From assembly GCF_021353265.1 (NCBI RefSeq), contig NZ_JAJTWU010000001.1, positions 1-64,000 on the forward strand: 64,000 bases of DNA, given 5' to 3'. Positions within the stretch are counted from its first letter, which is position 1, and each line of letters begins with the position of its first letter. The notes beneath the pieces were generated by a model. The model worked only from the letters and a program-made list of their open reading frames with translations, had not been told where the DNA came from and ran no database searches. Of this stretch, positions 40,479 through 59,416 are shown piece after piece. The position numbers and the translations under genes were made by a program. The stretch is from Pelomonas cellulosilytica. Its GTDB lineage: Bacteria; Pseudomonadota; Gammaproteobacteria; Burkholderiales; Burkholderiaceae_C.

Positions 40479-41300
40479 TCAGGCCGTCAGGAAGGCCATC
40501 ACTTCGGCCGCCCTTGCCTCGCGGGGTACCAGCACTGCGCGGCTGGCTGGTAGCAGCGCGGCGGCGGCGTCGAGGTAGTCGCGCATGGGGTCGCCTTCAG
40601 CGGCCATCAGCAGCGTGGGCAGCCGAAGCCGTGGCAGCCGCTCCGCGGTCGCATGCGAGAACACCGCGCGGTAGGCCAGGTGGTAGGTGGGGAGGGCCTT
40701 CAGCAGCTCGACGACTAGCGCGTGGCGCGCGGCCGCCGGCGGCACCGGCCCCAGCATCAGGCGGTGCGCCGGGTCGCGCAGGAAGTGCGGGAAGTGCACG
40801 AACATCTCGCCGACGAACTGCCAGGCCCAGGCGAGGTGGCCGCCATGCTCGTCCGGCTGCATCGGCGGCGCATACCGCTCCAGCATCTGCTGCTGCAGCG
40901 CGGGCGGGAAGACGCCCAGCCCGTCCAGCACCAGGCGGCGCACGCGGTTGGGGTGGCGCAGCGCCAGCTCGACGCCGATGTGGGCACCGCTGTGCTGGCC
41001 GCAGTAGTCCACCTGGTCCAGTCCCAGCCGGTCCAGCGTCTGCACGAGTTGGTCCACGTAGTCGGACAGCTCCGGCTGGGACTGAGGCAGCGGGTCTGAG
41101 TCGCCGTTGCCCGGCATGTCCGGCGCGATGACGCGGCGCTGCGCGGCCAGCTCGCCGATCAGCGGGGCCAGCCCGGCCGACGAGCCTGGCCCGGCGTGCG
41201 CGAGCAGCAACGGCAGCTCGCCGGGGCGCGAGGTGCCGGCGGCTCGGTAGTGCACCAGCCGGCCGTCAAGCAGGCGCAGGAAATGCCGGTCGATCCACAT
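40479..41300 (-). CDS. alpha/beta hydrolase-fold protein, apparently without the catalytic histidine
   Basis: A 273-aa alpha/beta-hydrolase-fold protein with an oxyanion-type AHAGPGSS, RVIAPDMPGNGDSD, nucleophile elbow YCGQHSGAHIG (Ser) and acid-region MAAEGDPMRDYLD. The C-terminal segment after the Asp reads VLVPREARAAEVMAFL, where active members have a His (GH...). No His follows, so hydrolysis may be impaired or the protein may have another role. It is the last gene of the long minus-strand operon, 2 nt after the cupin. By position it recalls the deformylase or C-C hydrolase of ring-cleavage clusters. Confidence 0.78.
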   Translation of the reverse strand: MWIDRHFLRLLDGRLVHYRAAGTSRPGELPLLLAHAGPGSSAGLAPLIGELAAQRRVIAPDMPGNGDSDPLPQSQPELSDYVDQLVQTLDRLGLDQVDYCGQHSGAHIGVELALRHPNRVRRLVLDGLGVFPPALQQQMLERYAPPMQPDEHGGHLAWAWQFVGEMFVHFPHFLRDPAHRLMLGPVPPAAARHALVVELLKALPTYHLAYRAVFSHATAERLPRLRLPTLLMAAEGDPMRDYLDAAAALLPASRAVLVPREARAAEVMAFLTA

Positions 41301-41302: not shown

Positions 41303-42148
41303 TCAGTAGCCGCGCGCCGGCAGGTAGGGCACGTCGCGCAGGTGGGCCAGGTCCGGCGGTAGCACCGGCGCGTAGGGCTGGTGGAAGTCGAAGGGCGCCT
41401 CGTCGGTCGTCCAGATGTTGACGTGGCGGCCGCCGACGAAACGGATCAGCGCCACGCAGCCCCAGCGCGTGCCGAAGGGGCCGTGGGGGATGCCGGGCGG
41501 CCGCCAGAAGTAGGCGCCGGCATGCATCTCGCCATAGGGGCCCACCAGCGAGCCGGCGATGACGAAGCACTCCTCGACGACCGGGTGCGACTCCCGCGGC
41601 CCCTGCGAGCCCGGCGGCTCTGAGTGCGGCAGCATCATCGACAGGAAGGTGCGCTCGCCCGTCTTCTGGTCGGTGCGCAAGTCCTTGCGAGAGATGCCCA
41701 GGTGGGCCAGCTTCTGGTCGTTGAGCCGCATGTCCCAGGGCATGTGCAGCACGTCGCGCTGGCCGATGCTGGGCAGGCCAGCCTGCGGTACCGGCGGCCC
41801 CAGCTCGGGCCGCGCGTCGAAGAAGGTCAGCACGACGGCGCCGCGTCGCGTCGACATCGAGTGCCGCAGCAGGCCGCGCGGCACCTGCCCGTAGCGGTCG
41901 GCGCCGAAGTGCAGGCCGTTGATCTCCAGCTCGCCCTCCAGCACGTAGAACTCCTCTGCGGCGTCGAGGGTCTCGTCGGCCAGGCGGGACCAGCCGGCCG
42001 GGTAGCGGATCAGGCAGGTGCAGGCGCCGGTGTCGGGGTCTCGGCTGAGGTACTTGTACTCGGCATCGGGCCGCGCCGCGCCGGGCGGGATGCGGCGCCA
42101 CGGCAGCATCTGCGCCTGGACGAACTCGGTGTGAGGGCGGTTCAACAT
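41303..42148 (-). CDS. double-cupin domain protein (paralogue of 35614-36513)
   Basis: A 281-aa bicupin. The first half has EEFYVLEGELEI and PRGLLRHS. The second has SHPVVEECFVIAGS and PPGIPHGPFG, giving two His and two Glu as metal candidates. It resembles the cupin at 35614-36513 in length and second-half motif, and each sits beside a possible ring-product enzyme. It lies 10 nt after leuD and 2 nt before the hydrolase gene. A ring-cleaving or isomerising role is possible but not shown. Confidence 0.75.
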   Translation of the reverse strand: MLNRPHTEFVQAQMLPWRRIPPGAARPDAEYKYLSRDPDTGACTCLIRYPAGWSRLADETLDAAEEFYVLEGELEINGLHFGADRYGQVPRGLLRHSMSTRRGAVVLTFFDARPELGPPVPQAGLPSIGQRDVLHMPWDMRLNDQKLAHLGISRKDLRTDQKTGERTFLSMMLPHSEPPGSQGPRESHPVVEECFVIAGSLVGPYGEMHAGAYFWRPPGIPHGPFGTRWGCVALIRFVGGRHVNIWTTDEAPFDFHQPYAPVLPPDLAHLRDVPYLPARGY

Positions 42149-42158: not shown

Positions 42159-42782
42159 TCAGCCCAGGTAGATCCAGGGCCGGGCCTGGCGGTCGGCGGC
42201 CTGGAAGGCGTCGATGGCGGCGCTGGATTCCAGCGTCAGCGCGATCGGGTCCAGCCCCTTCAGCAGCATCTGGCGTTGGCTAGCGGCCAGCTCAAAAGCG
42301 TAGGCCTGGCCGCCGGCATCCGTCACCGTGCAGGCCAGCAGGTCGATGTGGATAGGGCGCGCCTGCGGATCGGGCTCGACCGAATCGGCCAGTGCGGCGA
42401 CCTGCGCTTCGGACAGCACCACGGGCAGCAGGCCGTTGCGCACGCAGTTGGCCGCGAAGATGGCACCGAAGCTCGGCGCGACGATGGCGCGGATGCCGTA
42501 CTCCTTCAGCGCCCAGACGGCATGCTCGCGCGACGAGCCGCAGCCGAAGTTGCGACCGGCCAGCAGGATGGTGCTGCTGCGCTGCTCGGGGCGGTTCAGC
42601 ACGAAGTCCGGCGCGGGTTCGCGGCCCTGCACGTAGCGCCAGCCGGCGAATAGGCCGGCGGCCAGTCCAGTCTTGGAGACGGTCTTCATCTCCCGGGACG
42701 GGATGATGGCATCGGTGTCGATATTGCTGCGCAGCAGTGCGGCGGCGACGCCGGTGTGCGTGATGAACGGGTCCATGGCCAT
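42159..42782 (-). CDS. leuD: 3-isopropylmalate dehydratase-type small subunit (LeuD family)
   Basis: Swivel-domain subunit of an aconitase-family hydro-lyase, 207 aa. It has NIDTDAIIPSREM (about 21-33), GRNFGCGSSREHAVWAL (about 81-97) and ANCVRNGLLPVVL. It pairs with LeuC three nt upstream. LeuA and LeuB are absent and the operon is catabolic, so hydration of a substituted maleate (citraconate-like) is more likely than leucine synthesis. That is inference. The start could also be the ATG at 42776. Confidence 0.85.
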   Translation of the reverse strand: MAMDPFITHTGVAAALLRSNIDTDAIIPSREMKTVSKTGLAAGLFAGWRYVQGREPAPDFVLNRPEQRSSTILLAGRNFGCGSSREHAVWALKEYGIRAIVAPSFGAIFAANCVRNGLLPVVLSEAQVAALADSVEPDPQARPIHIDLLACTVTDAGGQAYAFELAASQRQMLLKGLDPIALTLESSAAIDAFQAADRQARPWIYLG

Positions 42783-42785
42783 GTC

Positions 42786-44216
42786 TTAAAGCAGCCCGCG
42801 CGGGTCGGCGATGCGGCCGGCGATCGCAGAGGCCGCCACCGTAACGGGGCTGGCCAGGTGCGTGCGGGTCTGCGGCCCCTGACGGCTTTCGAAATTCCGG
42901 TTGGTCGTGCTGATGACGCGCTGTTGCAGGCCGAAGCTCTCGCCGCCGGCATAAAAGCACATCGAGCAGCCGGCCTCGCGCCAGTCGAAGCCGGCGTCCA
43001 GGAAGACCTGGTGCAAGCCCTCGGCCTCGGCCGCGAGCTTGACCTGCGTGGAACCCGGCACGCAGATGGCCTTGACGCCCGGCGCCACCTTGCGGCCGCG
43101 CAGCAGGGCTGCGGCGGCGCGCAGGTCCGACAGCCTGCTGTTGGTGCAAGAGCCGATGAAGGCCGCGTCGATGGGAAGGCCGGCCAGCGGCTGGCCCGGC
43201 CGCAGGTCCATGTAGGCCAGCGCCTTGTCCATCGCATGGCGCGTGGCGGCATCCGCAGCGGTCGAGGGTTGCGGCACCTGCGCGTCCACGCCGACCGCAT
43301 GCTGCGGACTGGTGCCCCAGGTCACCATCGGCGCGAGGCGGCTCACGTCAAGCCGGGTCTCGGCGTCGAAGCGGGCGTCGGCGTCGCTGCGCAGCTGGCG
43401 CCAGGCGCTGCAGGCCTGCTGCCAGGCCTCGCCCTGGGGCGCGAAGGGGCGACCTTCCAGGTAGGCCAGCGTCGCTTCGTCGGGCGCCACGAGGCCTGTG
43501 AAGGCCGAGAACTCGACGGCCATGTTGCACAGCGTCATGCGGGCCTCGATGCCCAGGGACCGCACCGCGTCGCCATCGAACTCGACGACGGCGCCCTGCG
43601 CGCCCGACGCGCTGTCGCGGGCGATGAGGGCCAGGATCATGTCCTTGGCGCCGACGCCGTGCGGCAGCAAGCCGTCGAACGTGACACGCATCGAGCGTGG
43701 CTTGACGACGCGCAGGGTCTGCGTGGCCAGCGCATGCTCGGCCTCGGACGAGCCGATACCCCAGGCCAGCGCGCCTAGGGCGCCCTGCGTGCAGGTGTGG
43801 CTGTCGGGGCATACGACGGTGGCGCCGGGTAGCACGATGCCTTGCTCGGGCGAGACGACGTGCACGATGCCCTGGCGCAGGTCGCCCAGGTCGAACAGCT
43901 GGATGCCGCGCTGGGCCGTCTGTTCGCGCGTGATGCGGATGAAGGACTCGCCACCGGGCATCAGGGTGTGGTCGTTGCGGCCGGGGAAGGTGTCGACGAT
44001 GTGGTCCAGCGTCGCGAAGGCCAGCCGCGGGTTGCGGACGTCGTGGCCGGCTTCGGTCAGCGCCTTCAGGGCGACGCCGCCGGTGCGCTCGTGCAGGAAC
44101 ACGCGGTCGATGTGGACCAGGCTGTCGCCCTCGTCCAGCTCGGCGACCAGGTGCTGGCGCCAGAGCTTGTCGAACAGCGACTGCCCGCCTGCGGGAGGGG
44201 CTGGCGTAGCGCTCAT
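42786..44216 (-). CDS. leuC: 3-isopropylmalate dehydratase-type large subunit (LeuC family)
   Basis: Aconitase-family [4Fe-4S] hydro-lyase subunit, 476 aa. Cluster cysteines are visible in [10 protein letters not shown] and in CSMC. After CSMC the sequence FYAGGESFGLQQRVIS differs from the canonical CLAMNPD...[12 protein letters not shown] form kept by the second LeuC at 62134-63552, suggesting altered substrate use. CPDSHTCTQGALGA and NMAVEFSAFTG are typical. The ATG overlaps nothing upstream in its own operon except the CaiB stop (ATGA at 44213-44216), showing tight coupling. Confidence 0.87.
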   Translation of the reverse strand: MSATPAPPAGGQSLFDKLWRQHLVAELDEGDSLVHIDRVFLHERTGGVALKALTEAGHDVRNPRLAFATLDHIVDTFPGRNDHTLMPGGESFIRITREQTAQRGIQLFDLGDLRQGIVHVVSPEQGIVLPGATVVCPDSHTCTQGALGALAWGIGSSEAEHALATQTLRVVKPRSMRVTFDGLLPHGVGAKDMILALIARDSASGAQGAVVEFDGDAVRSLGIEARMTLCNMAVEFSAFTGLVAPDEATLAYLEGRPFAPQGEAWQQACSAWRQLRSDADARFDAETRLDVSRLAPMVTWGTSPQHAVGVDAQVPQPSTAADAATRHAMDKALAYMDLRPGQPLAGLPIDAAFIGSCTNSRLSDLRAAAALLRGRKVAPGVKAICVPGSTQVKLAAEAEGLHQVFLDAGFDWREAGCSMCFYAGGESFGLQQRVISTTNRNFESRQGPQTRTHLASPVTVAASAIAGRIADPRGLL

Positions 44217-45400
44217 GCGGCGATCACGCCGTCGGCGACGAGCGCGTCTACATCGGCGTCGGTCAAGCCGCGCGACAGCAGCAGCGCGCGGCCACCGGCG
44301 CCGATGGCCGGCAGATCGTGGCGCAGGCCGAAGCGGTGGCCATCCATCTCCAGCGGCAGCGCCGGCAGCTTGGTGGTGCGGCCGTCGGGCAGCGTGACGT
44401 CCAGCAGCCCGGCGCCGGCATTCAGGTGCGGGTCGTCGAACAGCTCCTCGGGCTTGGCGATGGGTGCGAAGGGCAGGCCGGTGGCCTCAAGCTTGGCCAT
44501 GAGCGTGGCCTTGTCGAACTGCTTGAAGCGCTCGCGCACGATGGGCAGCGTGCGGTCGCGCTGGCGCACGCGCTCGGCGTTCTTCGCCAGGCTCTCGTCG
44601 GCCAGGAAGTCGGCGAAGTCAAAGGCCTCGCAGAACTTGCGCCACTGCGTGTCGCTGACGACGGCGGCGAAGACGCGCTCGCCGTCGCCGGCCTCGAACA
44701 CGTCGTACACGGCCCAGGCCGACTGCCGGATGGACATCGGCGGCGCGGCCTTGCCGGTGACGGCGTACTGCGCCATGTGCTGGCCCACGAGGAAGGCCGT
44801 AGTCTCGTACAGCGACGTCGTGATGCGCTGGCCGCGGCCGGTGCGGTGGCGCTGCTCCAGCGCACCGAGGATGCCGATGACGCCGAACATCGCGCCGGTC
44901 ACGTCGACGACCGACGCTCCCGCCCGCATCGGCCGGTCCGGCAGGCCGGTCATGTAGGCCAAGCCGCCCATCATCTGTGCCACCTCGTCCAGCGCGGTGC
45001 GGTGCTCGTAGGGGCCGCTGAGAAAGCCCTTGCCCGAGCAGTAGATCAGGCGCGGGTTGTTGCGGGCCAGCTCGTCGTAGCCGAAGCCCAGTTCGTCCAT
45101 CGCGCCGGCGCGGAAGTTCTCGATGACGACGTCCGTGTCCGCCAGCAGCTGCTGCACCAGCGCGCGGCCTTTCTGCGACTTGGTGTCGATGGCCAGGCTC
45201 TTCTTGTTGCGGTTGTACATCGCGAAGTAGCCGGCGCCGGAGCCGCTCAGGCGGCGCGTGTTGTCGCCTTTGATCGGCTCGACCTTGGTCACGTCGGCGC
45301 CCATGTCGGCGAGGATGACGCCGATGCTGGGCCCCATCACCATGTGGGTGAATTCGATCACCTTCAGCCCCGACAGGGGCAGGTCTTCAGTCGTCGTCAT
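44213..45400 (-). CDS. class III CoA-transferase (CaiB/BaiF family)
   Basis: CaiB/BaiF-type enzymes move CoA between carboxylic acids through an aspartyl-CoA intermediate. It is 395 aa from the ATG at 45400 (overlapping the lyase stop). Seen: the N-terminal LSGLKVIEFTHMVMGPSIG, ADMGADVTKVEP and the catalytic region TALDEVAQMMGGLAYMTG with the Asp nucleophile. Flanked by LeuC and an HMG-CoA-lyase-type gene, it would make the CoA ester of a substituted malate for cleavage. Donor and acceptor are unknown. Confidence 0.9.
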   Translation of the reverse strand: MTTTEDLPLSGLKVIEFTHMVMGPSIGVILADMGADVTKVEPIKGDNTRRLSGSGAGYFAMYNRNKKSLAIDTKSQKGRALVQQLLADTDVVIENFRAGAMDELGFGYDELARNNPRLIYCSGKGFLSGPYEHRTALDEVAQMMGGLAYMTGLPDRPMRAGASVVDVTGAMFGVIGILGALEQRHRTGRGQRITTSLYETTAFLVGQHMAQYAVTGKAAPPMSIRQSAWAVYDVFEAGDGERVFAAVVSDTQWRKFCEAFDFADFLADESLAKNAERVRQRDRTLPIVRERFKQFDKATLMAKLEATGLPFAPIAKPEELFDDPHLNAGAGLLDVTLPDGRTTKLPALPLEMDGHRFGLRHDLPAIGAGGRALLLSRGLTDADVDALVADGVIAA

Positions 45401-46350
45401 GCAGCGTCTCGGTTCTGGGGAGTGGCGGGCACGAAGCCCTTGGGCAGGCCGGCCAGCGGCGTCATGCCGTACAGCGGCTCGCCCGGCAGCGCGCGGGCCA
45501 GCAGCTCGCGCGTGGCGAACAAGGCCTCGATGTCGATGCCGGTGCGCAGGCCCATCGACTCGAGCAGGAAGACGAGGTCCTCCGTCACAATGTTGCCGCT
45601 TGCACCCGGCGCGAACGGGCACCCGCCGAGGCCGCCCAGCGACGAGTCCAGTGTCGTCAGACCCACGTCCAGTGCGGCGACAACATTGGCCAGGCCCTGG
45701 CCGCGGGTGTTGTGCAGGTGGATGCCGGTGAGCTGGTCGCGGCCCACGGCCGACCAGACAGCGCGGATCAGTCGCCGTACCTGCGCTGGGTTAGCGTAGC
45801 CGGTCGTGTCGGATAGGCCCACCTCGTCGCAGCCGGCCTCCATCAACGCGACGGCCAGCTCCAGAACGCGTTTCTCAGGCACGATGCCCTCCAGCGTGCA
45901 GCCGAAGGCGGTGGACAAGCCGCCCTCCAGGTGCGGGCGTCGGTCTGCCGGCTGGCTCTGGATGAGCTCGGCGATGCGGCGCACCTCGTCCAGCATCTGT
46001 GCGTGCGTTCGGCGTACGTTGCGCAGACTGTGCGTCTCGCTGACCGACAGCGGCACGGTGATCTTGTGGGCGCCGGCGGCGACGGCCGCCTCGGCGCCCT
46101 TGAAGTTCGGCACTAGTACGGCCACGTTCAAGCCGGAGATCGAGCGGGCATGCGCAACGATCTCGGCGGTGTCGGCAAGCTGCGGCAGGATGTGGGCCGG
46201 CACGAAGGAGCCGACCTCGATCTCGGCCACGCCCGCAGCGGCCGCGGCGCTGATCCAGGCCTTCTTGTCTTCCGTGGCCATGATGGCCGAAATGCTCTGC
46301 AGGCCGTCGCGCGGGCCCACCTCGCTCACGAGGACGTCGCGTTCTTTCAT
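45397..46350 (-). CDS. hydroxymethylglutaryl-CoA lyase-family aldolase
   Basis: A DRE-TIM metallolyase of 317 aa: GPRDGLQ (12-18), metal-binding HLH (211-213) and GGLGGCPFAPGASGN with the HMG-CoA-lyase Cys at about 244. These enzymes cleave tertiary 3-hydroxyacyl-CoAs. HMG-CoA gives acetyl-CoA plus acetoacetate; citramalyl-CoA would give acetyl-CoA plus pyruvate. With LeuCD and CaiB downstream, an alkylmalyl-CoA substrate is suggested. It overlaps neighbours by 4 nt at both ends. No leucine-catabolism genes are nearby, so a classical HMG-CoA role is less likely. Confidence 0.88.
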   Translation of the reverse strand: MKERDVLVSEVGPRDGLQSISAIMATEDKKAWISAAAAAGVAEIEVGSFVPAHILPQLADTAEIVAHARSISGLNVAVLVPNFKGAEAAVAAGAHKITVPLSVSETHSLRNVRRTHAQMLDEVRRIAELIQSQPADRRPHLEGGLSTAFGCTLEGIVPEKRVLELAVALMEAGCDEVGLSDTTGYANPAQVRRLIRAVWSAVGRDQLTGIHLHNTRGQGLANVVAALDVGLTTLDSSLGGLGGCPFAPGASGNIVTEDLVFLLESMGLRTGIDIEALFATRELLARALPGEPLYGMTPLAGLPKGFVPATPQNRDAA

Positions 46351-47279
46351 GCGGTCACCGGTTGTTGTGCGACGAAGGCATCGAGGATGTCGCCCGGTGC
46401 GGCCTGCCAGACGTCGGTGCTGGCGGCGACGTGGGCGAGTACGGTCTCCAGGTGCTGGATGCGGTGCGGCTGGCCCATGACCCAGGGGTGCAGCGACAAC
46501 GTCAGCAGCCGGCCGCCCTGGGTGCGCGCCTCGGTCCTTAGAAGTTCGAAGGCGTCGATGACCTGCTCTGCCCAGGATGCCTCGCTGTGCAGGTTGTCCA
46601 TGACGACGAAGCGGTCCTCGATCTCTGTGGCCAGGGGCAGGTTCCACAGGTCGCCGTGGGCCGTGTGGAAGCGATAGGGCAGCTCGTCGTTGACCCAATC
46701 GCCGAAGTAGTCGATGCCTTCGGCCTTCAGCAGCTCGGGCGTGTTCGGGCTCTGCAACTTGCCAGGGCTCAGCCAGCCGCGCACCCGCTGGCCGCTCAGC
46801 TCACGCAGCAGCGCGAGCGACCGCTGCACCGTGGCGCGTTCGTCGTCCAGCGCCAGGCCGCCGTGGTGCGGCGTGTCCATGGACCATGAATGCCCTAGCA
46901 CCTCGTCGCCATGTGCACGGATGTCGGCCATCAGCGCCGGGTAGCGCCGGGCCAGCTCGGCGTTGACCGCGAAGCTCGGGCGGATGTCAAACTTGTCGAA
47001 CGCGCGCAGGAAACGGTAGACGCCGACCCGGTTGCCGTAGTCGCGCAGCGTGTAGTGCCGCAGGTCGGGATACGGCATCGTCATCGAGCCCGGCAGCTTC
47101 AGCTTCGCCGACGGGTTCATCGGGAAGTGCTGCAGGCTCACGTTGATCCAGACGGCCAGCGGCTTTGCGCCGGGCCAGATCACACGTGGCCGATCGGTGA
47201 GCATCGACCAGGCATAGCGCTCGTGATCCATGCCGTAGCGGCGCAGGGGGTACTCCAGGTGGGTGGTGTCCAGCGACAT
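46347..47279 (-). CDS. polysaccharide deacetylase-fold hydrolase, PuuE/imidase-like (copy 1)
   Basis: A 310-aa NodB-fold protein of the branch that includes PuuE-type allantoinase and cyclic imide hydrolases rather than carbohydrate deacetylases. It shows RDYGNRVGVYRFLRAFD, GDEVLGHSWSMDTPHH (metal region) and a PuuE-like RGWLSPGKLQSPNTPELL. It has no signal peptide, so it is cytosolic. It is coupled to copy 2 (1-nt overlap) and next to an isochorismatase-type amidase, suggesting ring opening of a cyclic amide or imide followed by half-amide hydrolysis. Substrate inferred. Confidence 0.83.
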   Translation of the reverse strand: MSLDTTHLEYPLRRYGMDHERYAWSMLTDRPRVIWPGAKPLAVWINVSLQHFPMNPSAKLKLPGSMTMPYPDLRHYTLRDYGNRVGVYRFLRAFDKFDIRPSFAVNAELARRYPALMADIRAHGDEVLGHSWSMDTPHHGGLALDDERATVQRSLALLRELSGQRVRGWLSPGKLQSPNTPELLKAEGIDYFGDWVNDELPYRFHTAHGDLWNLPLATEIEDRFVVMDNLHSEASWAEQVIDAFELLRTEARTQGGRLLTLSLHPWVMGQPHRIQHLETVLAHVAASTDVWQAAPGDILDAFVAQQPVTA

Positions 47280-48196
47280 CAGCGGCCTCCGTTCTTGGCG
47301 TTGATGTCAGCCAGCGCCTGGTCGTGGTGGTGGGCCAGGTAATGTTCGGCGATCTCGCGGCCGGTCGTGATCCAGACATCGGGGTGGCTGGTGATGTAAG
47401 CCAGCGCGTCCTCGAAGGCCTTGAGCCGGTGCGGGCAACTGACCTGGTAGTTGTGCGTCGGGATGCACATGACGGTGCCGGACTCGGCGCCTTCTTCGTA
47501 GAGCCGGTCGAAGCTGTCCTTGATCATCTGGCCGTAGCGACGCGGCTCGATCTTGTTAACGACGTAGGCGATGGTGTCGTTGAGTTCCAGCGAGTACGGC
47601 ACGGACACGAAGCGCTGCCCGCCGCGCACGCGCAGCGGCGTCGGCTGGTCGTCATGGAATAGATCGCAGGTGTAGAGCCCGCCCAGCTCGGCGAACAGGT
47701 CCAGTGTGTGCTCGCTGTGTGACAGCGCCGGCGCCAGGTAGCCGGCCGGCCGGCGACCGGTGTGGCGCTCGATGGTCTCCATCGACTCCAGCACCATCGC
47801 GCGCTCCTGCGCCTCGGACATACCGTAGGTGTAGCGCGTGTTGTAGATGCCGTGGCTGAAGAACTCCCAGTCGCGTTCGCGGCACATCTGGATGATCTCA
47901 GGGTGGTGGGTGCACAGCGCGGTGGACAGTGAGATCGAGCCGCGGATGCCGTACTTGTCGAGCAGGGTCATCTGCCGCATGTGGCCCACGCGGTTGCCGT
48001 AGTCGCGGATGGAATAGCCGGGCACGGCGGGAGAGGGATGCGGCCAGGCGGCGCGCGCCGGGTTGGCCGGTGGCGTGAGTTCATAGAACTCGATGTTGGG
48101 CGCCACCCAGAACGCGACGCGCGCGCCGCCGGGCCAGCGAATCTTGGGGCGGCCGCGGTAGGGCCAGTAGTCGTAGTGGCCGGTGTCGAGCTTCAT
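47279..48196 (-). CDS. polysaccharide deacetylase-fold hydrolase, PuuE/imidase-like (copy 2)
   Basis: A 305-aa paralogue of the preceding protein: RDYGNRVGHMRQMTLLDKYG, WEFFSHGIYNTRYTYG (metal region) and RPAGYLAPALSHSEHTLDLF. No export signal. The ATG at 48196 overlaps the amidase stop. Two paralogues in tandem suggest either a hetero-oligomer or two related ring substrates. Confidence 0.83.
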   Translation of the reverse strand: MKLDTGHYDYWPYRGRPKIRWPGGARVAFWVAPNIEFYELTPPANPARAAWPHPSPAVPGYSIRDYGNRVGHMRQMTLLDKYGIRGSISLSTALCTHHPEIIQMCRERDWEFFSHGIYNTRYTYGMSEAQERAMVLESMETIERHTGRRPAGYLAPALSHSEHTLDLFAELGGLYTCDLFHDDQPTPLRVRGGQRFVSVPYSLELNDTIAYVVNKIEPRRYGQMIKDSFDRLYEEGAESGTVMCIPTHNYQVSCPHRLKAFEDALAYITSHPDVWITTGREIAEHYLAHHHDQALADINAKNGGR

Positions 48197-48879
48197 TCGC
48201 CTGCCTTCACGCGCTCGTCCAGCCAGCCCAGCGTCTCGTTGACGTCCACGACGTCGGCGTACTTCAGCATCAGATCGGTCAGGTTGGCAAAGTGGTATGA
48301 CTCGTGCTTGTCGGCCACGCACTGCTCCGGCACGATGGTGCGGTAGCCGCGCGACAGCGAATCAACTGCCGCCGCCCGCACGCAACCTGACGTGGAGCCG
48401 CCGGTGATGACGACGGTATCGACCTGGTGCCACACCAGCAGCGACTGCAGCGGCGTCTCGAAGAACGGCGAGGGCATGCGCTTGCAGTAGACGAGGTCGC
48501 GGCCTTGGTCGCCGGTCAGGATTTCGCAGCGCTCGTCGAATTGCGCGCGGCGCGAGCCGTGCTTGATGTTCTGCAGCGAGTCGGGCGTGTTTGTGCGCGT
48601 TCCCCAGACGCCGGCGTCCTCGCCGGACTCGGCGTACGCCACATGCGTCCAGACGACGGGCCAGCCCAAGGCACGGAAGCGCCGGGCCAGCGCGTTCACA
48701 TACTCGATCTGGCGCGGATCGGTCTCGTAGGCGGTGGCGAACTCATCGACCCGCGTGTACGCGCACTGGAAATCGATGTTCACCAGCACGGCCTTGCGTC
48801 CGTAGCCGAAGCGGGCGCGGCGGGGATTGGCCTTGATGTCGGCCCAGATCTCGCGCGCGGTCTTGTCGGATAGTTCCAT
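48193..48879 (-). CDS. isochorismatase-family cysteine hydrolase (half-amide amidase type)
   Basis: A 228-aa cysteine hydrolase close in motif to N-carbamoylsarcosine amidase and maleamate amidohydrolase. The catalytic triad is visible as Asp36 (VLVNIDFQ), Lys133 (VYCKRMPS) and Cys166 (GGSTSGCVRAAAVDS). CAGGAG precedes the ATG at 48879. Its position upstream of two imidase-like genes supports hydrolysis of a maleamate-like half-amide to a dicarboxylate plus ammonia. Exact substrate unknown. Confidence 0.87.
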   Translation of the reverse strand: MELSDKTAREIWADIKANPRRARFGYGRKAVLVNIDFQCAYTRVDEFATAYETDPRQIEYVNALARRFRALGWPVVWTHVAYAESGEDAGVWGTRTNTPDSLQNIKHGSRRAQFDERCEILTGDQGRDLVYCKRMPSPFFETPLQSLLVWHQVDTVVITGGSTSGCVRAAAVDSLSRGYRTIVPEQCVADKHESYHFANLTDLMLKYADVVDVNETLGWLDERVKAGE

Positions 48880-48946: not shown

Positions 48947-49939
48947 TCAACCTGCGGACACGGGCTCGTAGAACTCCAGCCAGGCACCGTCAGGCGCCTG
49001 CAGCGCCAGCAACCGAAGCTCGCCGTAGGGCGCCAGCGCCACGGTGCTCAGCGGCATCGCCAGCGGCTGGCCGCAGGCCTCGGCGTGCCGGGCCAGCGCG
49101 TCGATGCCGCGCACCGGGAAGCGCAGCGTGGCCATGCCGAAATGCGGCGGACCGGCGTCGGCCGACAGGTCGCGCCCGCAGGCGCCCGGCGCGGCGACCA
49201 GCTCGACCGAGCCTTCCATGCGGCCTTCCGGGTGCACGATGCACAGCTTCAGGCCAATCTGCGGCGCCAGTGCCGGCGGTGCGCCGAACAGGTTGGGGCC
49301 GGCCGCGAAGCCGGTTGATTCGTACTGCGACACAAGTTGGAAGCCGAGCACGTCGCGGTAGAAGGCGGCGGCGACGTCGACGTCGCGCACCAACTGGCTG
49401 GAGTTGAAGACCTGGCTGAAGTCGCGCAAGTGATCGAAGCCTTGCAGCGGTGGATGCAGCCGCTCGATGAGCGCCAGCCGCACGTTGTCCGGCCCGCGCA
49501 CCAGCCATTCCTTGACGCCCAGCGTGCCGAAGTCCCAAGCGATGGGCGGCGCGGCGCCGTGCCACTGCAGTGCGCGCATGCTGCAGGCCATCGCGTCCAC
49601 GTCCAGCACGCGCACGTTGAGGTCGAAGATGCCGCCACTGTCCCAGCACTGGTCGTCGGCGCGGATGTCGCGCTGCGGTTCGGCGCCGGACAGGCGCATC
49701 AGCCGCACGAAGCCCGTGTCGCAGTCCGGGTGGGCCAGCAGCCATTCGCGGCCGCTGGCGGCGGGCCGCCCCCACGCGGCGAGCAGTTGTGGGTCCACGT
49801 CGCCCTCGTGGCGCATCACCCAGCCGCCATTGCCGACCCAGCACTGCAGGTGCGGGGTTTCGTCGCGCACGATGACGACGGCCTCGCGGAAGCCGCCGAT
49901 GGCGAAGCCGCGCTCGCCGGTGCTTGACGGGACGGTCAC
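48947..49939 (-). CDS. VOC-superfamily protein with two glyoxalase/dioxygenase-like domains (GTG start)
   Basis: A 330-aa protein with two vicinal-oxygen-chelate modules (about 1-140 and 165-325), the second containing FSQVFNSSQLVRDVDVAAAFYRDVLGF, where the text beyond AAAFYRDVLGF is domain-typical. It resembles extradiol-dioxygenase/glyoxalase-like proteins of unknown specificity. I take the GTG at 49939, which overlaps the cytochrome c stop (GTGA); a longer frame exists but runs through the cytochrome gene. Possible ring-cleaving or lyase role. Confidence 0.77.
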   Translation of the reverse strand: MTVPSSTGERGFAIGGFREAVVIVRDETPHLQCWVGNGGWVMRHEGDVDPQLLAAWGRPAASGREWLLAHPDCDTGFVRLMRLSGAEPQRDIRADDQCWDSGGIFDLNVRVLDVDAMACSMRALQWHGAAPPIAWDFGTLGVKEWLVRGPDNVRLALIERLHPPLQGFDHLRDFSQVFNSSQLVRDVDVAAAFYRDVLGFQLVSQYESTGFAAGPNLFGAPPALAPQIGLKLCIVHPEGRMEGSVELVAAPGACGRDLSADAGPPHFGMATLRFPVRGIDALARHAEACGQPLAMPLSTVALAPYGELRLLALQAPDGAWLEFYEPVSAG

Positions 49940-50340
49940 TTCGCGCTGCGCAGGTAGTCGATCAGCGCCTTGCGCTCGTCCGCATCGGGGATGCCGATGA
50001 AGGCCATCGTCGTGCCGGGCACGACGTTGGTGGGCTTGGTCAGCCAAGCGTTCAGCAGTGCTTCATCCCACACCTGCTTCTGCGCCTTCATGGCTGGGGA
50101 GTAGTTGTAGCCGACCAGGCCGCCCAGCGGGCGCCCGAGCAAGCCTTTGAGGTTGGGCCCAATGCGGCCGCTGGGGGTGTCGCCGACATCGTGGCAAGCG
50201 GCACAGCGCATGAACAGTCGCTTGCCTTTGGCCACGCTGGTGGCGTCGCCGGCGGGCTGGGCGGTTGCAGCGCCTGCGCCGAGCAGGGCGCACAACAACG
50301 TGGTCCAGGCGAGGGGGCGGCGCGACTGTTGAAGCTGCAT
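49936..50340 (-). CDS. class I c-type cytochrome, secreted
   Basis: A 134-aa periplasmic cytochrome c with a signal peptide ending ATAQ (about 27). Haem is attached at CAACH (46-50) and the distal ligand is probably Met112 in GTTMAF. The ATG at 50340 has AAGG seven nt upstream; an ATG two codons earlier is too close to it. Together with the Tat-exported molybdenum hydroxylase in the window, this could be its electron acceptor. It is the first gene of the long minus-strand operon. Confidence 0.9.
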   Translation of the reverse strand: MQLQQSRRPLAWTTLLCALLGAGAATAQPAGDATSVAKGKRLFMRCAACHDVGDTPSGRIGPNLKGLLGRPLGGLVGYNYSPAMKAQKQVWDEALLNAWLTKPTNVVPGTTMAFIGIPDADERKALIDYLRSAK

Positions 50341-50548
50341 TTGCATACCTTTCTGAGTGGTTCCTAGAGCGCGGGTTGGCGGCGATGCTAGGTCGCTGCC
50401 AAAGCTAAGTCATGCCAGGCGCTCTGGCGTGTTCGCGCTGCGGGAACGGGCCGCTATCCGCCTGATGGACGCTGGCGCGGCGCCGCAAGACCCGGCGCCT
50501 TCGCGATGTGAGGATGTGTCGTCCCTCCTCCAAGAAGCATTCGTTGCC
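50341..50548. promoter_or_regulatory. divergent promoter region, cytochrome c operon / flavin monooxygenase
   Basis: About 208 nt between divergent genes. It contains GGGAACGGGC (50442-50451) and TATCCGCCTGATG (50455-50467), which resemble two blocks conserved upstream of both TonB receptors, though with different spacing. No clear -35/-10 pair. Confidence 0.4.
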
Positions 50549-51754
50549 ATGAACACTCACCAAACCGAGGTGCTCGTCGCCGGTCTCGGGCCTGTAGGCT
50601 CCACGGCTGCGCTTTCGCTGGCCCGCCAGGGCATCGCCGTCACAGCCGTCGAGCCTTTGGCCAACAGCGCTACCGACCTGCGCGCGTCCACCTACCATGC
50701 GCCGACGCTGGAGATCCTCAGCGACCTGGGCGCGGCCGAGACGCTTTTCAGCCAGGGGTTGAAGGCGCCGATCTACCAGTACCGCGACCGCCAGACGGGC
50801 GAGGTGTTCTCGTTCGACATGACGGAGATCGCTGACCGCACGCGCTTCCCGTTCCGCATCCAGTGCGAGCAGCACCGCGTGACGGCCGACATCGTGGCCC
50901 AGCTGAAGAAGCAGCCCAGCGCCAATGTGCTGCAAGGCCAACGCGTGCTTTTCGTCGAGCAGGATGCAGAGGGCGTCACGGCCTATGTGGAAAGCGCCAA
51001 CACAGTGGAGCGCTGGCGCGCGCGCTATCTCGTAGCAGCGGATGGTGCCAGCAGCGTCGTGCGCAAGGTGCTGGGGTTGCAGTTCCCGGGCTTCACGTAT
51101 GACGAGAAGTTTGTCTGCTTCTCGACGGAGTACCCGATCGAGGAAGCCTTCGAGGACCTGAGCTACGTCAACTACATCTCCGACCCGCAGGAGTGGATGG
51201 TCGTGCTGCGCGTGCCGGGCCTGTGGCGCATCCTTGTTCCGGCGCCGACGGACTTGACCGACGAGCAACTGGTCTCGGATGACTACAAGAACGGCGTGTT
51301 CCGCCGCATGCTGGGCCACGACGGCGACATCGTGACCCGCCACCGCACGATCTACCGCGCTCACCAGCGGGTCTGCGAGCGCTTTGCGGTGGGCAACATC
51401 CTGCTGGTCGGCGACTCGGCGCACTTGAACAGCCCGATGGGCGGCTTCGGCATGAACAGCGGCATCCACGACGCCATCAACGCCAGCGAGAAGCTTGTGC
51501 GCGTGCTGCGACACGGTGCCGACGCGGCGCAGCAGATCGCCCTCTACGAGCGCCAACGCAAGACCGTCACGCATGACTTCGTGCAGGCCCAGACAATCGA
51601 GAACACGCGGCTCATGCGTGACGGCTGGGCCAACGCGCGCGCCCAGCGCAGCGAGGCGATGAACAAGCTGATGAATGACAGCGCCGCGCGGCGGACGTAC
51701 CTGCTCAAGCAGTCGATGTTCACGAGTCTCGAGCAGGCCGCCGCGATGGTCTGA
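50549..51754 (+). CDS. FAD-dependent monooxygenase (aromatic hydroxylase type)
   Basis: A 401-aa class A flavoprotein monooxygenase: GLGPVG (12-17) in the Rossmann segment, DG-type YLVAADGASSVVRKVLGL near residue 160, and the GD motif NILLVGDSAHLNSPMGGFGMNSGIHDA near residue 290. Relatives (MhpA, NicC-like and others) hydroxylate aromatic or heteroaromatic rings with NAD(P)H and oxygen. The N-terminal frame is open upstream, but the ATG at 50549 starts directly at the dinucleotide fold. It is divergent from the cytochrome/VOC/amidase operon and upstream of the receptors. Confidence 0.87.
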   Translation: MNTHQTEVLVAGLGPVGSTAALSLARQGIAVTAVEPLANSATDLRASTYHAPTLEILSDLGAAETLFSQGLKAPIYQYRDRQTGEVFSFDMTEIADRTRFPFRIQCEQHRVTADIVAQLKKQPSANVLQGQRVLFVEQDAEGVTAYVESANTVERWRARYLVAADGASSVVRKVLGLQFPGFTYDEKFVCFSTEYPIEEAFEDLSYVNYISDPQEWMVVLRVPGLWRILVPAPTDLTDEQLVSDDYKNGVFRRMLGHDGDIVTRHRTIYRAHQRVCERFAVGNILLVGDSAHLNSPMGGFGMNSGIHDAINASEKLVRVLRHGADAAQQIALYERQRKTVTHDFVQAQTIENTRLMRDGWANARAQRSEAMNKLMNDSAARRTYLLKQSMFTSLEQAAAMV

Positions 51755-52010: not shown

Positions 52011-54470
52011 ATGCACTTGTCCCCACTGCCCTGTCATTCCCTGTCGCTACGCTCGTCGTCGCGGATCGTGCCCACCGGTGTGGCGCTGGCCTGCGCGCTA
52101 TTGATGGGCAGCCCGGCGCTGGCCCAGACGACATCGGCGTCCGAAGGCCAGGAGGCCACCAACGCGCTGCCCACCGTCACGGTCACCGCCCGCAAGCGCG
52201 CGGAGGTGATGCTGGATGTGCCGATCTCCATCCAGGCGCTGTCCGAGAAGGAACTTCGCACGTCAGGCATCACGGATGTGAAGGACCTGGGCGAGCAGAC
52301 CGGCTTCAGCTTCTCGTCCGCACAGGGCACGGGCGCGCAGGGGCGCTCCTTCGGTGTCGTGACGTTCCGCGGCCTGCAGGGTGAGCTGAACTTCCCGTGG
52401 GAGAACTCGGGCGGCATCTTCGTCGACGGCATCTTTGTCTCAGGCGGCGTGTCGGGCCTGGGGCTGGGTGACGTGGCGCGCGTGGAAGTGCTGAAGGGAC
52501 CGCAAAACGCGTTCTTCGGCCGCAGCACCTTCGGTGGTGCGGTGAACTTCGTCACGAAGAACCCGGGGACGACGCTAGCCGGCACGGTCAACGCCACCCT
52601 CGGCAACGATGGCAGCAACGACGTGGATGCCAGCATCTCTGGCCCGCTGCTGGGCGACAAGCTGACCGGCCGCATCACGTTCGGCAGCAAGACGAAGGCC
52701 GCGTTGTTCCACGCCACGGACGGTGGCGACATGGGTGCGGAGAGCTCCCGCTACGTCAGCGGCACGTTGTACTTCAAGCCCAACGAGTCGGTGTGGGTGC
52801 GCCTGCGCGGCCTGTACCAGCAGGACGAAGACTCCGCGCCCGCGACCGGCATGATCTCGGCCAACGGCAACACCAGCTGCACTGGCAAGACCTACACCGG
52901 TCAGAACGCCAGCGGCGCCCCCGTGACCTACACGCCCAGCGTGCCTTACTTCTGCGATGGCATCCCGTCGTACAAGGAGGTTGGCTCCAAGGTCTTCGAC
53001 GCGAACACCGCCTTGCCGGCCGGCGTCTACGCCGCGTTTGTCGACAACAGCCTGGGCGATCCCTTCCTGGCGAAGTCGCCACGGCTCACCCATATGGGTA
53101 TGAAACGCGAGACCCTGCGCCTTTCTACCCAGGCAGCGGTGATGCTGCCTTACGACATGGACGTGGCGTTCAACGCCGGCTACAACGAGTCCAACTCCAC
53201 CAGCATCCACGACCTGGATCGCAGCAAGGCCAATGCCTTCCTGGCGCTGCAGACCAACCCCACGCGTGACCTGACGCTGGACGCGCGGCTGTCCACCAGC
53301 CCGTCCAATCCGCTGCGCGGCCTGCTGGGTGCCAGCTACTTCGTGTCCACCTTCCAGCTGTCGCAGATCGACCTGAGCTCGGCCTTCGGCCAGGTGAGTC
53401 CGACCCGCAGCACCGGCGCTTACCTGGACCTGCGTGCCCACGTGCCGGCCGTTTACGGTGCGGTCGAGTACGACATCAACGACCAGTGGACGGTGTCAGC
53501 CGAGGCGCGCTACCAGAAGGACAAGAGCGCCTATGTTTCGCTGGATGGCACGGAGACCAGCAACACCATCAACAGCTGGCTGCCGCGCGTGACGCTGCGC
53601 TACAAGCCGATGGCGTCGATGTCCGCCTACGTGAACCTGGCGCGCGGCGTGCAGCCGCTGACCGTGAACGGTGGTTACGCGAATGCGAATGCCGCAGGCA
53701 AGGCCTACCTGGAAGCGCTGTTCCCCGGCATCACGCCCTTCACGCCGCAGCCCAAGCTGGACTCCGCCGAAGTGGGCCTCAAGCAGCAGGTGAGCCGTAC
53801 TTTCCAGTACGCGCTGGCGATCTACGACCAGAAGTGGAAGAACCGTCTCTCCGGCACAACCGTGTTCAACCCGGCCAGTTGCGGCACGACGGTCAACACG
53901 CCTGAATGTCCATTCGCTACCTCCGGCACGGGTGTGACGATCTCCAACGAGGCCCGTATCCGCGGGCTGGAACTGACGGTGGATGCCCAGCTGACGCCGT
54001 CCTGGACTGCAGGCGGCTACCTGGACTACAAGGATGCTACCTGGACCAAGTTCGACGCTGCCAATGCCGCCGTGCTGACCGGGTCGGCCGTCGCCTTCGA
54101 CGGCAACCACCTGGCTCGCCTGCCCAAGTTCAGCGTGTCGGCCAACACGACCTACCGGTTCGGCCTGAGCGACGGTTGGAGCGGCTACACGCGGGGTGAC
54201 CTCACGTGGGTCGGCAAGCGCTGGGAGACCGACTTCAACTTCACGCAGGACGACGGCTACAAGCGCTTTGACCTGCGACTGGGATTCGAGAAGAAGGACT
54301 TGTTGATCGAGCTCTTCGCCCGCAACGTGTTCAACGCCCAGGACTGGGCAACGGTCTCGCGCTACTTCGACCTGACGGCACAGCCGCTGACCAACTTCAA
54401 CCGCCAGGCTGTGCAGGTGACGCTGCAGGACCCGCGGACGGTAGGCGTGCGCCTGCGCTACGGCTTCTGA
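52011..54470 (+). CDS. TonB-dependent outer-membrane receptor 1
   Basis: An 819-aa outer-membrane receptor using TonB energy to import a large or scarce substrate. It has a signal peptide ending SPALAQ (about 39), a TonB-box-like LPTVTVTARKR, a plug domain (about 55-165), and a beta-barrel ending in VRLRYGF with the aromatic C-terminus typical of porins. Cys pairs occur in the barrel (NTSCTG/YFCDG and NPASCG/PECPF). GGAG precedes the ATG. It is highly similar to receptor 2 and lacks siderophore-specific features, so an organic nutrient is as likely as iron. Confidence 0.92.
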   Translation: MHLSPLPCHSLSLRSSSRIVPTGVALACALLMGSPALAQTTSASEGQEATNALPTVTVTARKRAEVMLDVPISIQALSEKELRTSGITDVKDLGEQTGFSFSSAQGTGAQGRSFGVVTFRGLQGELNFPWENSGGIFVDGIFVSGGVSGLGLGDVARVEVLKGPQNAFFGRSTFGGAVNFVTKNPGTTLAGTVNATLGNDGSNDVDASISGPLLGDKLTGRITFGSKTKAALFHATDGGDMGAESSRYVSGTLYFKPNESVWVRLRGLYQQDEDSAPATGMISANGNTSCTGKTYTGQNASGAPVTYTPSVPYFCDGIPSYKEVGSKVFDANTALPAGVYAAFVDNSLGDPFLAKSPRLTHMGMKRETLRLSTQAAVMLPYDMDVAFNAGYNESNSTSIHDLDRSKANAFLALQTNPTRDLTLDARLSTSPSNPLRGLLGASYFVSTFQLSQIDLSSAFGQVSPTRSTGAYLDLRAHVPAVYGAVEYDINDQWTVSAEARYQKDKSAYVSLDGTETSNTINSWLPRVTLRYKPMASMSAYVNLARGVQPLTVNGGYANANAAGKAYLEALFPGITPFTPQPKLDSAEVGLKQQVSRTFQYALAIYDQKWKNRLSGTTVFNPASCGTTVNTPECPFATSGTGVTISNEARIRGLELTVDAQLTPSWTAGGYLDYKDATWTKFDAANAAVLTGSAVAFDGNHLARLPKFSVSANTTYRFGLSDGWSGYTRGDLTWVGKRWETDFNFTQDDGYKRFDLRLGFEKKDLLIELFARNVFNAQDWATVSRYFDLTAQPLTNFNRQAVQVTLQDPRTVGVRLRYGF

Positions 54471-58564: not shown

Positions 58565-59416
58565 TCAGCCCCGGAAAGCCGCTTCCAGGTGTGCGCCAGG
58601 GTCGGCCCACCAGGCCGGCTTGGTGCGGCGCGTCTCGGCCAGCCAGATGGCCGGCAGCGTGTCCAGCGTCAGGCCGTAGCGGCCGGCACCGTGCGCCATC
58701 ATGTGACCTGGCTGATCGGCCGGCATCTGCTGCCAGGGGCGCCAGCCGCTGACGTTGGTGAACGACATGCTGGCGGGCACCTGCAGCGAAGCCGGGTCGC
58801 GCAGCGCGGCCAGCGGGGCGCGCACCGTTACCAGTTCGCTGTAGCGGTAGGGCTTAGCAGGCGCCGGGAGGGGCAGGGCAGTGCGCACGCGCTGCGCCAT
58901 CACCAGCTCGCCGGCAACCTCCTCCATCGCGCTGACGCGGTCTTCTGCGACGGCGCCGGGCGGCAGCGGCTTGACGTGGTGGCGGCTGAGATCCTCGTGC
59001 AGCAGCAACGTGGTCGGGCGTGACGTGTGCACCACCGCGGGCACGCTCCGGCCGGTCAGCGGGTTGCGCCATTGCGCCATCACCTCGCCGCTGTCGGCGT
59101 CGGTGTAATAGGCGTGCTCGAAGCTGGCGCTGAGCCAGCGGCCATCCTCCAGCATGCGCCACCGCGTGAAGGTGGCGGCCACCACGCCGAACATTGGGAT
59201 CAGCTCGCTGTCGATGACGCCGTAGTACTGCCCGGTCAGCGCGGCCACGACGAGGCGGTCGTCGAGCGCGCCGCGCATCAGCAGGTAGTCCCGCTGACGA
59301 CCGGTTGGCGCTGCCGACGTAGCAGCCCCGGCCAGCAGCGGTGCTCCGCCGATGGAGGCCGCGGCGGCCCATTGCAGCCAGCGGCGGCGGTCGAGTGGTG
59401 GATCGTTCAGGGGCAT
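58565..59416 (-). CDS. DUF1838 family protein with Tat signal
   Basis: I recognise the domain-of-unknown-function family DUF1838 but no activity. The 283-aa product starts with a twin-arginine leader (DRRRWLQWAAAAS, residues 9-21), predicting folded periplasmic export. The body has RGALDDRLVVAALTGQYYGV, FTRWRMLEDGRW and AYYTDADSGEVMAQWRNPLTG, characteristic of the family. The ATG at 59416 has GAGG seven nt upstream. It follows the esterase gene by 19 nt, so it may act on the same exported substrate. Confidence 0.82.
   Translation of the reverse strand: MPLNDPPLDRRRWLQWAAAASIGGAPLLAGAATSAAPTGRQRDYLLMRGALDDRLVVAALTGQYYGVIDSELIPMFGVVAATFTRWRMLEDGRWLSASFEHAYYTDADSGEVMAQWRNPLTGRSVPAVVHTSRPTTLLLHEDLSRHHVKPLPPGAVAEDRVSAMEEVAGELVMAQRVRTALPLPAPAKPYRYSELVTVRAPLAALRDPASLQVPASMSFTNVSGWRPWQQMPADQPGHMMAHGAGRYGLTLDTLPAIWLAETRRTKPAWWADPGAHLEAAFRG

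Follow-up and report, generated by a model that had tools for sequence, protein, structure and literature searches.

This study concerns a run of seven genes at positions 42159-48879 of a 64,000-nt stretch of DNA from Pelomonas cellulosilytica (contig NZ_JAJTWU010000001.1; the whole stretch is called the window below). A preliminary description had reported seven coupled minus-strand genes here; all are present, and the families that it named are borne out by Pfam and NCBIfam. In the order of transcription they encode an isochorismatase-fold amidase (ISOCH, 48193..48879; PF00857, E 3e-27), which we propose as an alkylmaleamate amidohydrolase; two PuuE-like proteins of the polysaccharide-deacetylase fold (PF01522), namely PUE2 (47279..48196), a putative cyclic-imide hydrolase, and PUE1 (46347..47279), a putative imidase of other specificity or a partner subunit; an HMG-CoA-lyase-type aldolase (HMGL, 45397..46350; PF00682), which may serve as a dialkylmalyl-CoA lyase; a class III CoA-transferase (CAIB, 44213..45400; PF02515), a candidate dialkylmalate CoA-transferase; and the large (LEUC1, 42786..44216; PF00330, E 1.5e-152) and small (LEUD1, 42159..42782; PF00694) subunits of an aconitase-type hydratase, a putative dialkylmaleate hydratase. 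From the end of the amidase gene to LeuC, neighbours overlap by 4, 1, 4, 4 and 4 nt, and LeuC and LeuD are separated by 3 nt, so that five of the six junctions overlap, much as the overlaps of 1-4 nt at almost every junction noted earlier.

The run extends beyond these seven genes, a point that the preliminary description had missed. Downstream, a two-domain ChrR-type cupin (41303..42148; PF12973) follows after a 10-nt gap and an alpha/beta hydrolase (40479..41300; PF00561) after a further 2 nt; both are on the minus strand and probably belong to the same transcription unit, and the cupin has an orthologue after LEUD1 in three of the related loci introduced below (L036, L040 and L041). Upstream of ISOCH, at a gap of 67 nt, is a two-domain VOC protein (48947..49939; PF00903), itself overlapped by 4 nt by a cytochrome c gene (49936..50346; named by eye, with an orthologue in L037 and L038); these too are on the minus strand. 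The seven genes thus sit within a probable 11-gene unit running from 50346 down to 40479: cytochrome c, VOC protein, amidase, two PuuE-like proteins, HMGL, CaiB, LeuC, LeuD, cupin and alpha/beta hydrolase. Scans for promoters and terminators gave results at about chance level (0 against 0.6 and 6 against 4.1, respectively).

Conservation of the trio and its partner enzymes

A scan of genome contigs with PUE2 returned 412 relatives, of which the best 80 loci were kept for all counts out of 80; counts out of 85 add five plasmid loci, and many loci are cut by contig ends. Genes in the loci were counted from tblastn because some overlapping genes (HMGL, CaiB) escape the simple gene caller, and the identity thresholds for orthologues were chosen by the analyst after viewing the first comparison. 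The amidase, PUE2 and PUE1 genes (hereafter the trio) lie in that order on one strand, with gaps under 300 nt, in 78 of the 78 loci that hold all three; the other two of the 80, L045 and L099, each lack one member within the fetched stretch. Matches over the thresholds to the full set of seven were found in 10 of the 85 loci, to six in 5, five in 8, four in 2, three in 57 and fewer in 3. A search for the same seven-gene order in other genomes, which the preliminary description had recommended, thus succeeds: in L036, L040 and L041 all seven are consecutive among the matches, on one strand and in the window's order. As for the rest of the window, the 80 loci contain no match to the 21 genes called at 0.1-23 kb, and 15 of the 24 called genes at 22.8-64 kb outside the seven match trio loci (35% identity over 40% of the query in both cases), two of the 15 being a second LeuC and LeuD that also match their paralogues. 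The trio-linked gene set is not a chance arrangement.

Against the allantoinase model TIGR03212 (cut-off 424.6 bits) PUE1 scores 103.6 and PUE2 125.7 bits; a true PuuE elsewhere in the window genome scores 492.4 bits. A tree was built from 42 sampled rows, including 12 of 47 PUE1, 12 of 63 PUE2, 10 of 12 of a third type, 2 of 8 other paralogues and three PuuE rows (from six candidate stretches, the other three giving no row under a motif and length filter). PUE1 and PUE2 each form a separate clade with 100% bootstrap, apart from the three PuuE rows; several of the deep branches are long and their joins unsure. The preliminary description had been prepared to give up its reading if phylogeny tied the amidase and both of these proteins firmly to enzymes of unrelated substrates; instead, PUE1 and PUE2 fall far below the allantoinase cut-off and into two clades of their own. 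The ISOCH motifs NIDFQ (34), CKRMP (132) and GGSTSGC (160) hold the Asp, Lys and Cys expected of the triad of isochorismatase-fold amidases, and ISOCH scores 24.4 and 25.3 bits against models of RutB and biuret amidohydrolase (BiuH) with cut-offs of 377.95 and 370 bits. We rejected allantoinase, RutB and BiuH identities on these scores and on the presence of the genome's own PuuE.

The same comparisons bear on a ureide or carbamoyl route, in which the PuuE-like proteins would open a hydantoin-like ring and the amidase would remove a carbamoyl group, as in the breakdown of purines, pyrimidines or creatinine. The closest solved relatives of PUE1 and PUE2 include PuuE allantoinase, those of ISOCH are an isochorismatase-family hydrolase (4l07) and N-carbamoylsarcosine amidohydrolase, and homologues of the hydantoinase/oxoprolinase proteins HyuA and HyuB occur in 6 and 7 of the 80 loci, respectively. 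Such a route nevertheless seems improbable to us, with scores so far under the allantoinase, RutB and BiuH cut-offs in a genome with a true PuuE, and it gives no reason for the LeuC-type hydratases found in 35 of the 80 loci.

The hydratase of the operon is also distinct from that of leucine biosynthesis. A LAMN-type signature after GCSxC is a mark of the leucine-pathway LeuC; the genome's LeuC on contig 26 reads GCSMCLAMN, LEUC1 reads GCSMCFYAGG, and all 15 printed rows of LEUC1 type, the window's included, are without the LAMN form. LEUC1 scores 544.2 bits with the leucine-pathway model TIGR00170, under the cut-off of 560.25, and exceeds the cut-offs of the broader LeuC subfamilies NF009116 (704.3 against 531) and NF004016 (593 against 510). 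LEUD1 lies above the cut-off of the leucine-pathway LeuD model TIGR00171 (205.9 against 116.25 bits), and the loop after DTD is DTDAIIPSREM in LEUD1 versus DTDAIMPKQFL in the LeuD of contig 26. A role in leucine biosynthesis was rejected on the LEUC1 score and signature. On the cut-offs, the tree and the LeuC signature, it is unlikely that the trio set serves purine, pyrimidine or leucine metabolism. HMGL has the motifs PRDGLQ, HLHNTRGQ and GLGGCPFAPGASGN, matches solved HMG-CoA lyases at E 6e-64 and, with its catalytic motifs present, scores 279 bits against the cut-off of 246 for the HMG-CoA lyase subfamily PRK05692, a placement that does not imply the substrate. CAIB is below the cut-off of every listed NCBIfam model, including that of succinyl-CoA:mesaconate CoA-transferase (NF041294; 204.7 against 700 bits).

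The single hydratase-lyase set of the preliminary description is present, but a second, at 60616-63552 on the minus strand, had been missed. It comprises LEUC2 (62134..63552), 51% identical to LEUC1; LEUD2 (61508..62134), a small subunit recognised by its similarity to LeuD and its DTD motif; and DML (60616..61479; PF13714), a member of the isocitrate lyase/PEP mutase family that we propose as the dialkylmalate lyase of this set. Solved relatives of DML include the petal death protein, which acts on alkylmalates, and 2,3-dimethylmalate lyase, the best match being a carboxyphosphonate phosphorylmutase entry; among the literature matches listed for the petal death protein, none dealt with its substrates. 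Orthologues of DML (67%) are found on two Sphingomonad plasmids that carry the trio, and of LEUC2 (62%) beside the trio in L117 and L121. The plasmids pJE1 and pTomTYG65b carry both sets around the trio, LeuCD-CaiB-HMGL as well as LeuCD with an isocitrate-lyase-family lyase, as in the window; the matches listed in a search of open-licence papers for pJE1 or TomTYG65 were unrelated.

Hydratases and lyases of several kinds accompany the trio more generally. The 35 loci with a LeuC-type hydratase divide into 17 of LEUC1 type, 11 of LEUC2 type and 7 of a shorter type, and the chance of a LeuC-like gene in a 20-kb stretch is expected to be 2.5%, assuming five per 4 Mb. A lyase of the HMGL, isocitrate lyase/PEP mutase or CitE family occurs in 55 of the 80 loci, a count that stands without any background estimate. 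Both kinds of enzyme are found in 29 loci, a hydratase only in 6, a lyase only in 26 and neither in 19; among the 46 loci of at least 20 kb, 24 have a LeuC-type hydratase and 38 a lyase. This is the pattern to be expected if, as the preliminary description proposed, the trio delivers a substituted maleate, because varied hydratases and lyases would then be recruited near it. Indeed, the earlier order of events, from imide through half-amide, alkylmaleate and hydroxyacid to a lyase, gains support from the context (the 78 of 78 conserved order, the three hydratase types and the several kinds of lyase), while its substrates and reactions keep the standing of predictions. A 2-hydroxypyridine or nicotinate-type route was set aside, as nothing in the literature matches listed fits it and the hydratase-lyase coupling points to a substituted maleate.

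A citraconate- or itaconate-type C5 module, in which LeuCD, CaiB and HMGL would yield pyruvate and acetyl-CoA and merely adjoin an unrelated amidase trio, would account for the CaiB and HMGL types, which fit known citramalyl-CoA logic, and for the 57 of 85 loci with just three of the seven genes over the thresholds, many of them cut by contig ends. We consider such an accident of adjacency very improbable, given the 1-4 nt overlaps that couple the genes in the window and the three sequence types of hydratase co-located with the trio.

Tetrapyrrole-related genes in the relatives

The source of the imide is suggested by what else lies near the trio in related genomes. One of the genes near the trio in L067 encodes a CpeT/CpcT protein (PF06206, E 9e-31), with the domain at residues 40-216 of 335. 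We searched 49 trio genomes, taken from the first 50 loci in scan order and picked by similarity to PUE2, and a class sample of 370 genomes, 5 of which, the window genome included, have PUE2 at E up to 1e-70. PF06206 is present in 19 of the 49 trio genomes versus 2 of the 370. Of these two, G517 carries the trio; G208, not counted as a trio genome, has its CpeT gene on a 10-kb contig (L137) with an amine-oxidase-like and a Rieske-like gene. For 19 of 49 versus 1 of 365, Fisher's test gives p 1.2e-18, uncorrected for kinship and for the PUE2-based choice of trio genomes; for the overlap of CpeT and trio within the class sample alone, p is 0.027. In 11 of the 19 genomes CpeT lies 4.6-43.6 kb from PUE2 (distances computed by hand from match coordinates), nine on a contig equal in size to that of the trio and two, L040 and L067, inside the fetched locus; in the other eight, six have it on a contig of another size and two (L048 and L073) are unplaced. 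Within the 80 loci CpeT is found in six, by Pfam in L041, L067, L087 (partial), L102 and L107 and by position in L040; further candidates that tblastn suggested in L105 and L109 were not confirmed by Pfam. The stretches around CpeT share VOC, DUF1838-like, amine-oxidase-like, FAD oxidase and alpha/beta hydrolase genes with the window's island described below, homologues of the VOC protein being near CpeT in L129, L133 and L134.

A profile of 14 CpeT-like proteins (including that of L109) matches the phycocyanobilin lyase CpcT (4o4o) at E 2.3e-16. The proteins have a conserved C-terminal part and an N-terminal stretch that by eye resembles a signal or lipoprotein leader, and as read from these features the CpeT-type protein near the trio is more likely a binding protein. 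Of the 289 genomes in the class of G609, 4 have CpeT and 30 have PUE2 (E up to 1e-60); both occur together in G609, the centre of that sample, and in G761, where they are 19 kb apart, and no island genes surround CpeT in the other two, G892 and G823.

A second tetrapyrrole-related family emerged from a search for bilin reductases. PF05996 is matched in 6 of 50 genomes (the 49 and the window's) at E up to 1e-4, in two above the cut-off, and three weaker matches fall in the Microbulbifer trio loci L055, L056 and L058. Pfam assigns the protein in question to red chlorophyll catabolite (RCC) reductase, PF06405, above the cut-off of 24.9 bits in the two members scored singly (48.3 in L055 and 58.0 in L069); each of the 8 aligned homologues also matches the family, with E values of 0.1 or less and 1.3e-19 at best. 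Seven of the eight lie in trio loci (L055, L056, L058, L069, L084, L111 and L115; 7 of 80, a figure that stands without a background count in the class sample), and a Rieske gene stands in each of these seven loci, in four of them truncated where the fetched stretch ends. The plant RCC reductase takes over once a Rieske oxygenase has opened the chlorophyll ring. The eighth homologue, in Paraferrimonas (L156), adjoins a Rieske gene and is on a contig equal in size to that of the trio, roughly 150 kb from it; in L076 and L095 a Rieske gene is present and RCC reductase was not seen within the fetched stretch. RCC reductase was sought through the PF05996 search and within fetched stretches, and on that basis CpeT or RCC reductase is present in 24 of the 49 trio genomes, the 19 with CpeT and G586, G587, G589, G600 and G615. 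In 72,556 plasmid records, tblastn with two RCC reductase and then two CpeT queries gave one weak match, to the third query, and nothing for the other three.

Beside the Rieske and RCC reductase genes there is also a 320-350 aa protein with no Pfam family over the cut-off (L084:6831-7802 and five homologues; L156), for which we found no solved relative by sequence and obtained a model too poor to use (pLDDT 38). Two further identities were tried and dropped: no pheophorbide a oxygenase model was among those listed for the two Rieske proteins tested, and a 332-aa alpha/beta hydrolase scored 15.2, 11.1 and 10.9 bits in three members against a chlorophyllase cut-off of 26.

We propose, with a probability that we put at roughly 0.55, that the operon is the terminal module of aerobic catabolism of tetrapyrrole pigments (chlorophyll, linear bilins or both). 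Methyl-, methylethyl- and methylvinylmaleimide and hematinic acid are described as small molecules released when chlorophyll and heme are broken down oxidatively, and maleimides and hematinic acid have been reported from senescent leaves and lake sediments; the study itself found hematinic acid in leaves and did not detect maleimides (PMC7318184). The route below is predicted in its every reaction, substrate and assignment of maleimide to branch, from the observed anatomy of the unit, conservation of the trio, coupling of hydratase and lyase and tetrapyrrole-gene neighbourhood in relatives. Upstream oxidation would cut the pigment at its bridges to give methyl-ethyl- or methyl-vinylmaleimide and hematinic acid. 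The two PuuE-like proteins would hydrolyse dialkylmaleimides to dialkylmaleamates, the isochorismatase-fold enzyme would remove ammonia to leave dialkylmaleates, and a LeuCD-type hydratase would add water to give 2,3-dialkylmalates. CaiB may then attach CoA to one kind of dialkylmalate, which the HMGL-type lyase would split into pyruvate and acyl-CoA, and the other kind may be cut directly by the isocitrate lyase/PEP mutase family enzyme of the LEUC2-LEUD2-DML set; two kinds of maleimide would explain why there are two hydratase-lyase sets. For the relatives, we see about an even chance that the Rieske oxygenase and RCC reductase open and reduce chlorophyll catabolites, that CpeT-type carriers hold bilins, and that the trio and the two branches turn the fragments into ammonia, pyruvate and acyl units, which would make this the first bacterial gene set mineralising tetrapyrrole pigments. 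The window genome would take its place in this pathway because of trio orthology and shared island genes, and the organism may take up ready-made fragments.

The substrate is what we infer rather than observe, because the window genome is without CpeT, the proteins are read from sequence and PF06405 has no background count. Several observations weigh against a tetrapyrrole source. The 30 other trio genomes are without CpeT, and neither the window genome nor its nearest relatives (L036-L038) has a PF06206 match. The window genome has no match to PF05996 or PF09367 (CpeS) either, the latter being absent from all 50 genomes (49 trio and the window's), and a home-made RCC reductase profile found nothing in the window or the other fetched stretches of its genome. 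Staygreen (PF12638) is found in 0 of the 49 trio genomes, a null that is uninformative because no control genome matched. The CpeT profile reaches the plant protein CRL as well (E 0.002), which means that bilin binding need not be common to the whole CpeT family, and in the class of G609 without its centre, CpeT is in 1 of 29 genomes with PUE2 versus 2 of 259 (p 0.27). The two Rieske proteins tested match VanA_C, with no pheophorbide a oxygenase model listed. To these are added the lyase and RCC reductase counts given above without background, the kinship of ISOCH to N-carbamoylsarcosine amidohydrolase, and the make-up of the sample, since the genomes under comparison lack independence and include many metagenome assemblies, and those of the trio set were selected for their similarity to PUE2.

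These observations would be met if the same chemistry, from imide to lyase by way of half-amide, alkylmaleate and alkylmalate, served an imide of other origin, such as a plant or algal N-heterocycle, a xenobiotic imide or one of citraconimide or succinimide type, with CpeT and RCC reductase as accidents of catabolic islands. The majority of trio genomes that lack CpeT would then need no explanation, nor would the five opened plasmid loci, which show no CpeT or RCC reductase in gene lists or with home-made profiles. The Halomonas-type loci also suit such a source, being compact sets for an acidic substrate with TRAP-like transporter genes (by eye), LeuCD, isocitrate-lyase-family lyase and flavoprotein that may see another acid. 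We nonetheless regard another source as rather unlikely, as accident would hardly yield CpeT in 19 of 49 versus 1 of 365 genomes and, in 7 of the 80 trio loci, RCC reductase together with a Rieske gene.

The surrounding island

The surroundings of the operon, like the probable tetrapyrrole source, had escaped the preliminary description: much of 22.8-82 kb looks like one catabolic island. Divergent from the unit, on the plus strand, is an FAD monooxygenase (50540..51754; PF01494, E 1.6e-54) with 82-86% orthologues in the trio loci L037 and L038, followed by a TonB-dependent receptor proposed to take up pigment or fragments (52011..54470; PF00593, PF07715), a second such receptor (55975..58467; named by eye, 59% match in L038) and, on the minus strand, a DUF1838 protein (58565..59431; PF08894, E 7e-17). 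On the other side, a plus-strand HyuA and HyuB pair (22816..26962; HyuA by PF05378 and PF01968, HyuB by eye) may open a lactam ring. The region 22816-34714 also holds a molybdopterin hydroxylase large subunit, a zinc alcohol dehydrogenase, a small protein with no Pfam family over the cut-off, an MFS-like transporter and an FAD oxidase; HyuA, HyuB, the 226-aa protein, the transporter and the FAD oxidase are matched in 4-17 of the 80 loci and may act upstream. Within the island, 36629-40418 carries a GH30 C-terminal piece (PF17189) and a beta-glucosidase-like gene (by eye), the latter also in L037 (72%). Past the window the contig carries, with names given by eye, a further PuuE-like gene, an acyl-CoA dehydrogenase paired with a small conserved protein, an amine-oxidase-type flavoprotein and a second DUF1838-like gene. 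The short partner match (G000:C1:75197-75472) adjoins the acyl-CoA dehydrogenase (75496-76716), and the pair occurs in about a dozen trio loci.

Among the relatives, a cassette beside the trio, recognised by eye, consists of CaiB, acyl-CoA dehydrogenase, MaoC, CitE, a third PuuE-like protein and SDR (L055:2866-6332; L040, L071, L096, L109 and L144), CitE being near the trio in 11 of the 80 loci; it looks like a methylsuccinyl- or mesaconyl-CoA-type route for a saturated (succinimide-type) fragment. A compact set at L103:1538-13294 and ten similar loci unites a TRAP-like transporter (by eye), LeuCD, an isocitrate-lyase-family lyase, the trio and an FAD_binding_2 flavoprotein, and may work on its own in the use of an acidic imide, for example hematinic acid. 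A 243-aa protein (L073:683-1414), with no Pfam family in the member tested, neighbours the trio in 21 of the 80 loci. Its model (pLDDT 91) matches best a DUF1849 barrel of unknown function, no solved relative was found by sequence, and the barrel gave no help as a clue to the substrate.

Relation to known systems

The proposed route borrows from several known systems. As in succinimide-type cyclic imide degradation, an imide would be opened and the half-amide deamidated to a dicarboxylate, and imidases of PuuE-like fold exist; here, by contrast, an alkylmaleate would be hydrated and cut, and there are two imidase-like genes. The dimethylmaleate hydratase and 2,3-dimethylmalate lyase of nicotinate fermentation likewise pair a LeuCD-type hydratase with an isocitrate lyase/PEP mutase family lyase, whereas the route proposed here would be aerobic and fed by imides and would have an additional CoA-dependent branch. 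Citramalate CoA-transferase and citramalyl-CoA lyase resemble that branch in CaiB activation and HMGL-type cleavage to pyruvate and acyl-CoA; our proposed substrate differs in its second alkyl group, and CAIB is far under the mesaconate CoA-transferase cut-off. With plant chlorophyll breakdown (pheophorbide a oxygenase and RCC reductase), seven trio loci share a Rieske oxygenase gene and an RCC reductase homologue, but the C-terminal domain of the two Rieske proteins tested is of VanA type, and neither gene was found in the window. The cyanobacterial CpcT/CpeT bilin lyases share PF06206 with the near-trio proteins, which add the conserved C-terminal part and the putative leader. Plant breakdown ends with phyllobilins, while the bacterial route proposed here would continue as far as central metabolites.

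Of the order of 10^12 kg of chlorophyll is formed and broken down each year. We are aware neither of a bacterial pathway by which tetrapyrroles reach central metabolism nor of bacterial genes for the disposal of pigment ring fragments. Among the matches listed in open-licence papers, we found no description of such a pathway or gene set, in line with the earlier statement that no described operon with this exact set was known. If the proposed function is correct, these genes would provide markers for a part of the carbon and nitrogen cycle that has been missing, and a role would be found for genes whose present annotation goes no further than polysaccharide deacetylase, isochorismatase or isopropylmalate dehydratase.

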